64,000 bases of DNA from contig NZ_JAFBCA010000001.1 of assembly GCF_016907475.1 (NCBI RefSeq), forward strand, positions 3,038,001-3,102,000. Reading direction: 5' to 3'. This DNA is from Nocardioides cavernae (GTDB lineage: Bacteria > Actinomycetota > Actinomycetes > Propionibacteriales > Nocardioidaceae). Shown one piece after another: positions 12,107-15,503 of this stretch; the first letter of the stretch is position 1; each line of letters starts with the position of its first letter. The notes below the pieces were generated by a model. That model made no database searches. It was not told where the DNA came from and saw nothing but the letters and a program-made list of their open reading frames with translations. The translations under genes were made by a program, and so were the position numbers.

Positions 12107-12316
12107 CTAGGCGAACTTGCCGTACTTCTTGTGCATGGCCTGCCTGGAGACGCCGAGCATCGTCCCGATCTCGGCCCAGGAGAATCCGTGGATCCGAGCC
12201 CGTCGTACGGCCACGGCCTCGGCTGCGGCCAGCTCGTGCTTGGCGCGGGCGATGCGCATCAGCTCTTCCAGGGGGTTTTCCTCCCCCGGGTCCTCGGCGT
12301 CGATTGCAGTCCTCAT
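12107..12316 (-). CDS. Small helix-turn-helix regulator (69 aa)
   Basis: Seen: an acidic N-terminus, a helix LEELMRIARAKHELAAAEAVAVRRAR, then the HTH FSWAEIGTMLGVSRQAMHKKYGKF ending almost at the C-terminus. This single-domain form is common in actinobacteria. Two identical-type dyads GTCAAC-N4-GTTGAC sit immediately upstream, and a TTGACA box is embedded in the distal one, so autoregulation is likely. The partner gene it may control is not evident; the broken lipoprotein lies downstream on the same strand. Confidence 0.75.
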   Translation of the reverse strand: MRTAIDAEDPGEENPLEELMRIARAKHELAAAEAVAVRRARIHGFSWAEIGTMLGVSRQAMHKKYGKFA

Positions 12317-12318
12317 GC

Positions 12319-12362
12319 GTCAACTGTCGTTGACATAACGCAGGTTGTCAACCTTCGTTGAC
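12319..12362 (-). promoter_or_regulatory. Twin operator dyads GTCAAC-N4-GTTGAC before the HTH gene
   Basis: Dyad 1 at 12319-12334 and dyad 2 at 12347-12362 have the same arms and 4-nt spacers and are 28 bp apart centre to centre. Dyad 1 is 2 bp from the ATG, so a bound regulator would cover the start site. Dyad 2 contains a minus-strand TTGACA (12346-12351) that could be the -35 box. Confidence 0.65.
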
Positions 12363-12404
12363 GATCTGCCGACCAACGCGGAGGCTCCGAGTCACGTCGT
12401 GACC

Positions 12405-12800
12405 TCACGCCTCCGCGATCTTCCGACCGGCGCGCGGTTGCTCCTTCGTCAGGTGGAGCAGCCACTGCGAGCCACCGGTATGGATCAGCGCGAGGCGTCG
12501 GGAGCCCTCACGACCGTGCAGGGTGAGGACGAGTCGCCGTTCGTCGCGCGAGTGCTCCTCCCAGGTCCCGGTGTCGGCGACGGACTTGTGCTCGTCCTCG
12601 TAGTCGACGTGGTCCAGGTCGTGGTCGTCCACCGCGATGGCCAATCGGTCGTGGCGACCGTCCTCCGGCAGCCCCTTGGGCACCGCCCAGCTGCGCAGCA
12701 CCCCGTCCTCCTCGAGCCGCAGGTCGAAGTGCGGGCTCGGCCGTCGGTGGTCGTGCAGGACGAACCTGGGCAGCTCCGGCACGGAAGGATCCCGCCTCAC
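12405..12800 (-). CDS. Stand-alone LigD-type 3'-phosphoesterase-like domain protein (131 aa)
   Basis: Seen: FVLHDHRRPSPHFDLRLEEDGVLRSWAVPKG, the first motif of the phosphoesterase module of bacterial NHEJ ligase LigD, with the histidine and HFDLRLE metal/phosphate residues kept. The usual second block (VPEGEYG...WDRG) is replaced by a shorter KSVADTGTWEEHS, so catalysis is uncertain. C-terminal WLLHLTKEQ matches the end of the domain. The known family trims 3' ends of DNA/RNA. GTG at 12800 overlaps the thioesterase stop by 4 bp, so the two form an operon. No ligase or polymerase domain is present. Confidence 0.8.
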   Translation of the reverse strand: MRRDPSVPELPRFVLHDHRRPSPHFDLRLEEDGVLRSWAVPKGLPEDGRHDRLAIAVDDHDLDHVDYEDEHKSVADTGTWEEHSRDERRLVLTLHGREGSRRLALIHTGGSQWLLHLTKEQPRAGRKIAEA

Positions 12801-13237
12801 CCGAGGCGTCGGAGCTGGTACGTCCCGACGGTCGTCGCCACGACCTCGCCTGCGGCGTCGGTGAGCGTCGCCTCGAGCTCGAACTCGCCCCGGCCCGTCG
12901 CCAGCGCGTCGGCACGCACCCGCGCGACCTCGTCCTCCGACAGCGACGCCGAGGCGCGTACGACGCCCAGCGCGGGCCGGCGGAACCTGATCGCGGACTC
13001 CTTGACGAGCGGCACGAACCCGGCGAGCTCGCCCTCCAGGTCGAAGGTGGTCAGGCTCAGCAGCCCACCCAGCATCTCGGCAACGCTGAACAAGGAACCG
13101 GCGTAGGTGACACCGAAGTGGTTGACGTTGGGCTCCGGCGGCAGCTCGGCCGCGGCGAAACCCGGTCGGACCTCGATGACGCGGATCCCCATGGCCTCCA
13201 GGATCGGGACCGACCCAACGGCCTGGACTGCCTCCAC
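12797..13237 (-). CDS. Hotdog-fold thioesterase-like protein (DUF4442/PaaI type, 146 aa)
   Basis: Seen: hotdog core with GIRVIEVRPGFAAAELPPEPN, HFGVTYAGSLFSVAEMLGG (the helix and Asn/His region of YiiD-C/PaaI-like thioesterases) and paired strands GRGEFELEATLTDAAGEVVAT. The start is chosen as GTG 13237 because a minus-strand promoter TTGCGG-17-TATACG inside and beside the RAE places the first transcribed base on this codon; an ATG at 13255 is also in frame but only 4 bp from the RAE. It shares the RAE with helR and is followed by the phosphoesterase gene. The acyl substrate is unknown. Confidence 0.78.
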   Translation of the reverse strand: MEAVQAVGSVPILEAMGIRVIEVRPGFAAAELPPEPNVNHFGVTYAGSLFSVAEMLGGLLSLTTFDLEGELAGFVPLVKESAIRFRRPALGVVRASASLSEDEVARVRADALATGRGEFELEATLTDAAGEVVATTVGTYQLRRLG

Positions 13238-13243
13238 TCTCAA

Positions 13244-13272
13244 CGTATAGGCCATCAGGGGGCTTGCCGCAA
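13244..13272 (-). promoter_or_regulatory. Leftward RAE promoter TTGCGG-17-TATACG
   Basis: The -35 TTGCGG (13267-13272) is the right half of the RAE read on the minus strand. The -10 TATACG (13244-13249) is 17 bp away and ends 6 nt before GTG 13237, predicting a leaderless transcript. Confidence 0.6.
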
Positions 13273-13278
13273 GGCCCC
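13259..13278. promoter_or_regulatory. Rifamycin-associated element (RAE)
   Basis: GGGGCTTGCCGCAAGGCCCC is a full match to the RAE consensus known from actinomycetes (GGGGCTTGC-N-GCAAGGCCCC), a cis-element that drives rifamycin-induced genes, including helR and rifamycin-modifying enzymes. It lies between the helR start (13302) and the divergent thioesterase gene, and both directions have TTGC of the element in the -35 position. Confidence 0.9.
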
Positions 13279-13294
13279 GGTCAGGCTTCACACT
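13264..13294 (+). promoter_or_regulatory. helR: Rightward RAE promoter for helR
   Basis: TTGCCG (13264-13269) inside the RAE as -35, and CACACT (13289-13294) as -10, 7 nt before GTG 13302. The 19-bp spacer is long; TTCACA at 13287 would give 17. A leaderless helR mRNA is predicted. Confidence 0.5.
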
Positions 13295-13301
13295 GCACGG
13301 C

Positions 13302-15503
13302 GTGACGCAGCAGGACACCCACCTCGACACCATGCCCTTCGCCCTCCCCCGCGCCCTCGCGGCCAAGTCCGACCCGTCCCTGATCGACCGCGACAGGGAG
13401 CACTTCACCCGGATCGCCACCGGGCTCGAGCGAGCGATCACCGACCTCGAGGAGCGCCTGGCGGAGGTGCGGCGGACCGCGGTGCGCCACGGCACGGCCG
13501 CCCTCGAGCGCGACCAGGAGGTGCACCGGCTGGCCACGAGGCTGCGAGCCCTGCGGCGCTACGACCTCGACCTCTGCCTCGGCCGCATCGTCCACTTCAC
13601 CCCCGAGAACGGCGACGAGCAGGACGGCGGGACGACGTACATCGGACGGTTCGGACTCGCCGACTCCGACGGCCGCCGGCTGCTCGTCGACTGGCGCTCG
13701 CCTGCCGCCGAGCCGTTCTTCGCCGCCACCCACGCGCACCCGCAGGGCCTGGTGAGCCGGCGTCGCTACCGCTGGGTCGGCGGGCGGATCGTCGACTACT
13801 GGGACGAGGCCTTCACCGAGGAGGGGCTGACCCACACCGCGGCACTCGACGACCAGTCGGCCTTCATCGCCACCCTCGGCGGGAGCCGTACGCCCCGGAT
13901 GCGCGACGTGCTGGGAACCATCCAGGCCGACCAGGACGCCATCGTCCGGGCCGGGTCGCGTGGAGCACTCGTCGTCGACGGTGGTCCCGGCACCGGCAAG
14001 ACGGTCGTTGCGCTCCACCGCACGGCCTACCTCCTCTACGCCGATCCGAGGCTGGGGCACCGGCGCGGGGGCGTGCTCTTCGTGGGCCCGCACGCGCCCT
14101 ACCTCGCGTACGTCGGCGACGTGCTGCCGAGCCTCGGGGAGGAAGGCGTGCAGACGTGCACCGTCCGCGACCTGGTCCCCGAGGCGGCCCGTGGGCCCGA
14201 GGGCGATGCGCAGGTCGCCGGGCTCAAGGCCGACCTGCGGATGGTCGAGGCGATCGAGCCGGCCGTGGCGCTCTACGAGGAGCCGCCCACCGAGCCGTAC
14301 CTCGTCGAGACGGCGTGGGGCGACGTCCGGATCACTGCGTCCGAGTGGGCCGAGGCCTTCGACTCCCCCGACCCGGGCACGCCCCACAACCTCGCCCGCG
14401 ACGACGTCTGGGACGAGGTCCTCACGATCCTCGTCGACAAGGCCGCGGACGTCGTCGAGGACCTCTCCCCCGACGAGCTCCGACGCGTGCTCGACGGCCA
14501 CGTCGGTCTGCGGGACACCTTCGACCGGGCCTGGCCGCTGATCGAGCACACCGACCTGGTGGGCGACCTCTGGACGGTGCCGGCCTACCTGCGCCGCTGC
14601 GCTCCCTGGCTCGACCCCGACGAGGTCCGGGCCCTGCGTCGCGACGACCCCGAGGCGTGGACGTACGCCGACCTGCCGCTGCTCGACGCCGCCCGGCTGC
14701 GGCTCGGTGACCCCGAGTCGTCGCGACGACGACGGCGTACACAGGCCGCCGAGGCGCGCGAACGCGCCCGGATGGGCGAGGTGATCGACGACCTGCGCAC
14801 CACGGCACGCGAGACGGGCGCCGACGAGTTCGGCGACGGCCTGGTGTCGATGCTCGTCCACGACGACCTGCAGACGGCCCTGGTCGACGACGCGGCGCTC
14901 CCGACGTCCGACGTCGACCTCCTGACCGGGCCGTTCGCCCACGTGGTCGTCGACGAGGCGCAGGAGCTCAGCGATGCCGAGTGGGCGATGCTGCTGCGTC
15001 GTTGCCCGTCGCGCAGCCTCACTGTCGTCGGCGACCGCGCGCAGGCCCGCCACGGCTTCGCCGAGTCGTGGACGGAGCGGCTGGCACGCGTCGGCCTCAC
15101 GGACGTCGCTGTCGCGCCGCTGACCGTCAACTACCGCACGCCGGCCGAGGTGATGGCCGAGGCCGAGCCGGTGATCCGCGCGGCGCTCCCCGAGGCCAAC
15201 GTGCCCACGTCCGTCCGCGAGAGCGGGATCCCCGTGCTCCACGCGCCTGTCGCCGAGCGCGACGCGATCATCGAGGGCTGGCTGGCCGAGCACGCCGACG
15301 GGACAGCGGTGGTCGTCGGCGACCCCACCTGGGTCGACACGGCGCGCGTCCGCTCCCTCGCACCCGAGCTGGTCAAGGGACTCGAGTTCGACCTCGTGGT
15401 GCTCGTAGACCCCGAGGGCTTCGGGGACGGCGTGTCCGGCGCGGTCGACCGCTACGTCGCGATGACCCGCGCCACGCAACGGCTGGTGGTGCTCACGACG
15501 TGA
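13302..15503 (+). CDS. helR: HelR-type RNA polymerase recycling motor ATPase (733 aa)
   Basis: Seen: an N-terminal coiled arm (SLIDRDREHFTRIATGLERAI), LLVDWRSPAAEPFF, Walker A GGPGTGKTVVALHR (about 226-235), Walker B-like VVVDEAQELSDAEW (about 548), VGDRAQAR, LTVNYRTPAEVM and a final VAMTRATQRLVVL, the order of UvrD-like HelD proteins. Known for the family: HelD/HelR enters the RNA polymerase channels, removes nucleic acid and, for HelR, displaces bound rifamycin. The upstream RAE supports the HelR rather than general HelD assignment. The helicase arm motifs are shortened compared with UvrD. GTG start; the 3' end overlaps the convergent ABM gene by 11 bp. Confidence 0.92.
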   Translation: MTQQDTHLDTMPFALPRALAAKSDPSLIDRDREHFTRIATGLERAITDLEERLAEVRRTAVRHGTAALERDQEVHRLATRLRALRRYDLDLCLGRIVHFTPENGDEQDGGTTYIGRFGLADSDGRRLLVDWRSPAAEPFFAATHAHPQGLVSRRRYRWVGGRIVDYWDEAFTEEGLTHTAALDDQSAFIATLGGSRTPRMRDVLGTIQADQDAIVRAGSRGALVVDGGPGTGKTVVALHRTAYLLYADPRLGHRRGGVLFVGPHAPYLAYVGDVLPSLGEEGVQTCTVRDLVPEAARGPEGDAQVAGLKADLRMVEAIEPAVALYEEPPTEPYLVETAWGDVRITASEWAEAFDSPDPGTPHNLARDDVWDEVLTILVDKAADVVEDLSPDELRRVLDGHVGLRDTFDRAWPLIEHTDLVGDLWTVPAYLRRCAPWLDPDEVRALRRDDPEAWTYADLPLLDAARLRLGDPESSRRRRRTQAAEARERARMGEVIDDLRTTARETGADEFGDGLVSMLVHDDLQTALVDDAALPTSDVDLLTGPFAHVVVDEAQELSDAEWAMLLRRCPSRSLTVVGDRAQARHGFAESWTERLARVGLTDVAVAPLTVNYRTPAEVMAEAEPVIRAALPEANVPTSVRESGIPVLHAPVAERDAIIEGWLAEHADGTAVVVGDPTWVDTARVRSLAPELVKGLEFDLVVLVDPEGFGDGVSGAVDRYVAMTRATQRLVVLTT

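Follow-up and report, generated by a model that had tools for sequence, protein, structure and literature searches.

The RAE that precedes helR in the 64,000-nucleotide stretch of Nocardioides cavernae DNA analysed here (the window) is probably best explained as the common −35 region of two back-to-back promoters, of which the antisense one would lead into a hairpin RNA or, at this locus, into the gene of a hotdog thioesterase-like protein. In one group of Nocardioides the second promoter appears to run an unrelated enzyme gene. Mirror-symmetric promoter-like elements, a co-varying hairpin, a conserved thioesterase-helR pair and the GTG start predicted for the thioesterase are established by sequence and comparison; we infer in addition that the two promoters are both active and mutually exclusive and that the hairpin terminates transcription.

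The RAE of the window and its flanking genes

The host genome consists of one contig of 4.85 Mb, and the closest named relatives of its helR are from Nocardioides. The locus comprises the following features:

12405-12800, minus strand: stand-alone LigD_N 3'-phosphoesterase-like gene with a 4-nt overlap at the thioesterase stop
12797-13237, minus strand: hotdog thioesterase-like gene (DUF4442 / YiiD_C in Pfam; match to 1sh8 (PA5026), E 7e-28)
13235-13237, minus strand: predicted antisense RNA start and thioesterase GTG start codon
13242-13249, minus strand: antisense −10-like element TATACGTT, read as TACGTT at the mirror position (19-nt spacer) or as TATACG (17-nt spacer)
13259-13277 (20-mer to 13278): RAE GGGGCTTGCCGCAAGGCCC, a 19-bp inverted repeat centred on 13268, with both −35-like boxes inside
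13289-13294, plus strand: sense −10-like CACACT, 21-26 nt from the RAE centre, 5' of helR
13302-15503, plus strand: helR, RNA polymerase recycling motor / rifamycin protection, GTG start, predicted leaderless

HelR scored 1168.7 bits against the NCBIfam model motor_HelR (NF041254), above the cut-off of 750. The thioesterase-like protein surpassed the Pfam gathering scores of DUF4442 (53.9 vs 25) and YiiD_C (41 vs 27) and stayed below the cut-off of NCBIfam yiiD_Cterm (TIGR02447; 44.4, cut-off 97.1). Likewise, the phosphoesterase-like protein, a short stand-alone form, scored above the gathering score of Pfam LigD_N (68 vs 31.1) and below the cut-off of NCBIfam LigD_PE_dom (TIGR02777; 68.4, cut-off 144). 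Behind the phosphoesterase gene lies the gene of a small helix-turn-helix-like protein (69 aa; 12107-12316, minus strand), 5' of which GTCAAC/GTTGAC repeats were noticed by eye at 12320-12365 and could be its operator. In locus L015 the thioesterase frame breaks off after about 120 residues and passes into a stretch resembling this helix-turn-helix protein, as if a deletion had fused the two genes.

The inverted repeat at 13259-13277 fits the known RAE consensus, as an earlier sequence-only reading of this DNA had noted, and the same repeat stands 5' of other rifamycin genes. The element precedes the rifamycin-protection gene helR and overlaps the sense −35. The element had been called perfect in that reading, which holds for its match to the RAE family and fails for the palindrome, one of whose nine arm pairs is unmatched (13262 G / 13274 G); the unmatched pair is usual for RAEs, with A or G at centre +6 in 53 of 56 helR sites. 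The identical 19-mer was found at RAE sites elsewhere, e.g. in genomes G179 and G112. When up to 3 mismatches were allowed, an idealised 19-bp palindrome matched the window at a single place, the RAE (shuffle mean 0.02), and the pattern GGGGCTTGCNGCAAGNCCC has one mismatch-free occurrence in the whole genome, again at 13259-13277. All other genomic places need 3 mismatches and represent background, with 4 hits on the forward and 5 on the reverse strand compared with 28 and 27 in a reversed-pattern control.

On the plus strand, TTGCCG (13264-13269) is separated by 19 nt from CACACT (13289-13294), which is followed after 7 nt by GTG 13302. On the minus strand, 17 nt separate TTGCGG (13272-13267) from TATACG (13249-13244), and a further 6 nt lead to GTG 13237. 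When re-read from the sequence, the coordinates given previously for the RAE, its boxes and the two starts proved correct, with a sense spacer of 19 nt. The predicted antisense RNA start is ambiguous within 13235-13237. Across the 15 loci of the Nocardioides clade described below, the antisense −10-like block TATACGTT is invariant, and the helR GTG lies at centre +34 to +36 in all 15.

An alternative thioesterase start, ATG 13255, shares one frame with GTG 13237 and was rejected: its frame runs into TGA in locus L199 and is shifted relative to the gene in L199, L200 and L206, the codon is ATC in L219, and ATG 13255 sits upstream of where the RNA is predicted to begin. The equivalent of GTG 13237 is retained in all four loci despite these changes, which makes GTG 13237 the likely start, at most 2 nt from the predicted RNA start. 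The comparison thus backs the divergent, probably leaderless starts around one RAE that had been proposed from the sequence, with GTG 13237 favoured over ATG 13255.

Mirrored elements and hairpins at RAEs in general

An RAE was present in 158 of the 394 genomes surveyed, and 75 survey sites were taken among the matches listed. Together with the helR loci and 52 further sites they gave 197 usable sites, L099 and L103 having been left out of the original 199 as they were cut by contig ends. In nine of the 80 helR loci, all 80 taken from named genomes, the scanned stretch (which in some lacks upstream DNA) contained no RAE at up to 3 mismatches, and these nine were not counted. Merging of sites at least 85% alike left 185, and setting aside the 10 remaining rows of the Nocardioides clade left 175. 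The survey sites and part of the 52 further ones were oriented by the promoter features themselves, which is a source of bias; the 56 helR-oriented loci, the non-redundant helR-oriented sites (52/53) and the orientation-free count are free of it.

Ungapped alignment on the RAE centre revealed the antisense block also in species without the thioesterase. When the 56 helR loci from outside the clade were oriented solely by helR, A22 was present in 56 and T26 in 55 on the antisense strand, and both were present in all 56 on the sense strand; these positions correspond to the pair of bases most strongly conserved in sigma-70-type −10 elements. Irrespective of orientation, 169 of the 175 non-redundant sites outside the clade carried nAnnnT on both strands 21-26 nt from the centre, a match that none of 32 other mirrored offsets showed in more than 3 sites. 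The stricter antisense TAnnnT was found at 21-26 in 170 of 175 sites, and no other offset between 13 and 45 had it in more than 2. Sense nAnnnT occupied the mirror place in 173 of 175, a loose motif that, on that strand alone, reached up to 40 of 175 at other offsets. The sense −10 is mostly CAGAAT or CACAAT (113/175), and the antisense one, mostly TAnnTT, is nearer consensus. GG stands at centre −33/−34 in 154 of 175 sites, and a mirrored G was seen at centre ±17 on each strand of the helR loci (51/56 antisense, 46/56 sense).

The antisense element accompanied every class of downstream gene, namely helR (96/98), monooxygenase (28/29), Rph (13/13), Arr (11/11), Rgt (7/8) and others (15/16). 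Representatives of the rifampin monooxygenase and Arr classes scored above their cut-offs (871 bits, cut-off 800, and 172.2, cut-off 130), and those of the Rph and Rgt clusters had these families as their best matches but fell short of the cut-offs; the Rph representative is truncated at the end of its locus. The proposal that one RAE is shared by two directions therefore stands for this locus and falls as a peculiarity of it, given the antisense element at 170 of 175 other sites.

In 96 of 175 sites a stem of at least 7 bp begins at the predicted antisense +1 (centre −33), compared with 15 at the sense mirror, and the profile of stem frequency over positions 16 to 65 peaks at centre −33. Such a stem is followed by at least three T in the next 8 nt in 59 of 175 sites on the antisense side and in one at the sense mirror. 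Perfect 8-bp stems occurred at 35 sites, with 2.6 expected from chimaeras (maximum of 200 shuffles, 7), an excess from which it follows that the stem arms co-vary. The co-varying arms point to an RNA structure and, with the U-rich tail, to early termination. Under a looser stem rule, 55% of true sites and 39% of chimaeras of different sites paired, which means that sequence conservation by itself accounts for part of the stem signal. An earlier and looser terminator scan, now superseded, had found a terminator at 51 of 129 sites (sense control 1/129; mononucleotide shuffles 222/2580). The +1 stem is missing in 79 of 175 sites, nearly absent at arr (1/11) and found in none of the 13 thioesterase loci, which belong to related species, so that this contrast may be one event. 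Rfam gave no family at gathering scores at the hairpin in 9 loci, and no match with E up to 1 in 12200-13700 of the window.

The thioesterase-RAE-helR arrangement in Nocardioides

A tblastn search with the thioesterase over the 80 helR loci placed it beside the RAE in 12, all from Nocardioides with helR at least 80% identical, or 13 including the window. Among close relatives, L012, L013 and L016 have the RAE and helR and lack the thioesterase at that place. A thioesterase search in 215 Nocardioides genomes gave 64 matches, 28 of them close (E 1.2e-57 or better), whose neighbourhood was judged by coordinates against the RAE-plus-sense pattern. The RAE lies directly beside the thioesterase in 18 of the 28 close genomes and, as a variant RAE, in a nineteenth (G428), and helR (80-100% identical) is found across the RAE from the thioesterase in all 19. 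The search for the same divergent pair that the sequence-only reading had suggested, carried out here in Nocardioides, thus found thioesterase, RAE and helR together in 19 of 215 genomes. That reading had also placed a thioesterase-phosphoesterase operon under the RAE; the thioesterase part of the claim is conserved to this extent, whereas a LigD-type phosphoesterase immediately 3' of the thioesterase is present in only 6 of 13 clade loci.

Several genomes depart from this arrangement. G549 and G463 keep an RAE 5' of the thioesterase (an exact palindrome and one with a single mismatch to the pattern) but no longer have helR or the sense −10 beside it, and the sole helR-like gene left in the genome is a distant paralogue, 32% identical. 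In G464, G475 and G476 the TTGC half-site, TATAC and GTG are kept, the palindrome is absent and helR is about 3 kb away; because these three relatives keep promoter remnants without the palindrome, the thioesterase does not seem strictly to need the RAE. In four others (G402, G450, G523 and G432) the thioesterase immediately follows a homocysteine S-methyltransferase gene; about 4 kb of sequence there contains no RAE, and the genome has no close helR. In the window, the homocysteine S-methyltransferase gene is on the far side of helR, and G549 and the four RAE-less genomes are therefore compatible with helR deletions. In a tree of 34 thioesterases, the 23 close ones group together (support 84/72, which is not strong) and the rearranged states are scattered among them. 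The clade thus offers natural variants of the locus: paired, helR-less, palindrome-less and thioesterase-less. In L016/L200, helR keeps the RAE and the antisense block, and a relic of that promoter persists at the thioesterase, about 3 kb off, as though separation of the two genes had involved a promoter duplication.

Readings of the antisense arm and other genes beside RAEs

If the RAE is the common −35 region of back-to-back promoters, RNA polymerase would sit on it in either direction, presumably one at a time; since each half of the palindrome supplies the −35-like box of one direction, binding of one polymerase should keep out a second. The sense arm, TTGCSG-19-cAnaaT, would drive a rifamycin-protection gene, here helR, leaderless from GTG 13302. 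The antisense arm, TTGCSG with TATAnnTT at the mirror position, would start RNA about 31-33 nt from the centre, and at many RAEs a hairpin is predicted to form right from the start of this RNA, often with a U-rich sequence behind it, so that the RNA would end after about 25-35 nt. In the Nocardioides clade, which has no such hairpin, the antisense promoter would instead face the thioesterase, leaderless or nearly so from GTG 13237, with the phosphoesterase behind it in some species.

The RAE might instead be the operator of a rifamycin-responsive factor, with the TATA block forming part of that operator or a UP-like element, no antisense promoter and an accidental position of the thioesterase start. 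We consider this quite improbable, even if the literature does guess at a factor on the palindrome (PMC10719064, PMC12802891). The TATA block does sit where a UP element of the sense promoter would be expected, and conservation reaches beyond the −10, e.g. to the G at 17 nt on both strands, but an operator leaves unexplained why a hairpin with a U-rich tail stands at the antisense +1 and on that strand only (59 vs 1 of 175), why its stems co-vary and why thioesterase genes keep TTGC..TATAC..GTG without the palindrome.

Regulation of the two putative promoters can be pictured in different ways, since a factor on the palindrome would meet both arms alike, predicting co-regulation, and competition between the arms predicts opposite changes. 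That rifamycin induces both arms through the RAE, bringing thioesterase and phosphoesterase into the rifamycin response as the sequence-only reading had it, is somewhat unlikely: a bound activator could act both ways from a palindrome equidistant from the two −10-like elements, the pair is conserved in 19 genomes and two genomes without close helR keep the RAE, but three relatives have lost the palindrome, the phosphoesterase is contiguous in no more than 6 of 13 loci and, if the arms compete, the thioesterase would fall rather than rise. The antisense arm may also be a plain constitutive promoter merely used by the thioesterase, which would then be no rifamycin gene; to this we give limited credence, as half-site, TATAC and GTG survive without the RAE in L199, L200 and L206 and four genomes carry the thioesterase behind the methyltransferase gene without any RAE, although G549 and G463 keep the RAE 5' of the thioesterase despite the loss of helR, losses that may be recent. 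Finally, the RAE could sense rifamycin without a dedicated regulator, its arms competing, the antisense one yielding a useless self-terminating hairpin and rifamycin tipping the balance to the sense arm. This appears unlikely; simple competition does not obviously give induction, because a polymerase arrested on the antisense arm still covers the sense −35. If true, the RAE would be an actinobacterial counterpart, of other geometry, of the Bacillus subtilis helD alarm, and some lineages would have placed genes on the decoy arm.

The window's RAE resembles the known RAE of actinobacterial helR, rox, rgt, rph and arr genes in having the same 19-bp palindrome over the sense −35, an overlap reported for mycobacterial helD (PMC10719064). 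The known RAE is described there as a sense element, possibly bound by a factor, whereas here it also carries a mirror antisense promoter-like element. How RAEs sense rifamycin was, according to a 2026 paper, still to be elucidated (PMC12802891). The B. subtilis helD dual-promoter rifampicin alarm likewise has sense and antisense promoters before a helD-type gene; these face each other, at 45-100 bp under the rule by which the authors searched, and polymerase arrest relieves the interference between them (PMC12802891). A stronger antisense promoter, relieved by rifampicin, is a further mark of that alarm. The −10-like elements at RAEs, in contrast, point away from each other around a common −35 region, with TAnnnT on the antisense arm and mostly CAGAAT or CACAAT on the sense arm; RAE genes were set apart from the alarm by its authors (PMC12802891). 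In the bidirectional promoters that Warman et al. studied in E. coli (PMC12825309), symmetry permits binding in either direction and one event blocks the other. These share a −10, with starts 10-23 bp apart in five cases, and basal activity in the five was too low for polymerase competition (PMC12825309); RAEs differ in their common −35, with −10-like elements 21-26 nt on either side and predicted starts about 65 bp apart.

No antisense promoter at an RAE was described in the titles or abstract openings of the literature searched, whose scope excluded the primary RAE/HelR papers and bioRxiv, and the parts of the RAE literature consulted make no mention of a mirror antisense promoter, a +1 hairpin or an antisense-arm gene. 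We provisionally regard the putative antisense promoter as new within the literature covered. If RAEs do carry one, the half-palindrome deletion reported for Mycobacterium abscessus (PMC10719064) also hits it and needs re-reading.

Other genes, too, start near the antisense +1 in some lineages. Candidates were picked by length and GC3, and five representatives were checked in Pfam: AraC-type regulators in L158 (+21) and L075 (+12), an Imm5-like gene in L073 (+19), a methyltransferase in L098 (ATG at +3) and an MDMPI_N gene in L071 (+16). Replacement of the terminator by a gene was not supported as a general rule: where a gene starts within 120 nt, 16 of 26 sites have the hairpin, and where none does, 89 of 149 (Fisher p = 1.0). 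A post hoc split (3/10 hairpins for genes starting by +26, 13/16 for later ones; p = 0.015) is a lead only.

On the sense side, L131, L135, L169, L181 and L223 have an RAE 5' of HelD-type proteins 36-38% identical to the window's HelR and, because RAEs precede such distant proteins, the element is not confined to the close HelR group. In L145, the frame chosen downstream of the RAE encodes a drrA-type ABC transporter ATPase (TIGR01188; 338 bits, cut-off 312.45), possibly a rifamycin exporter under RAE control.
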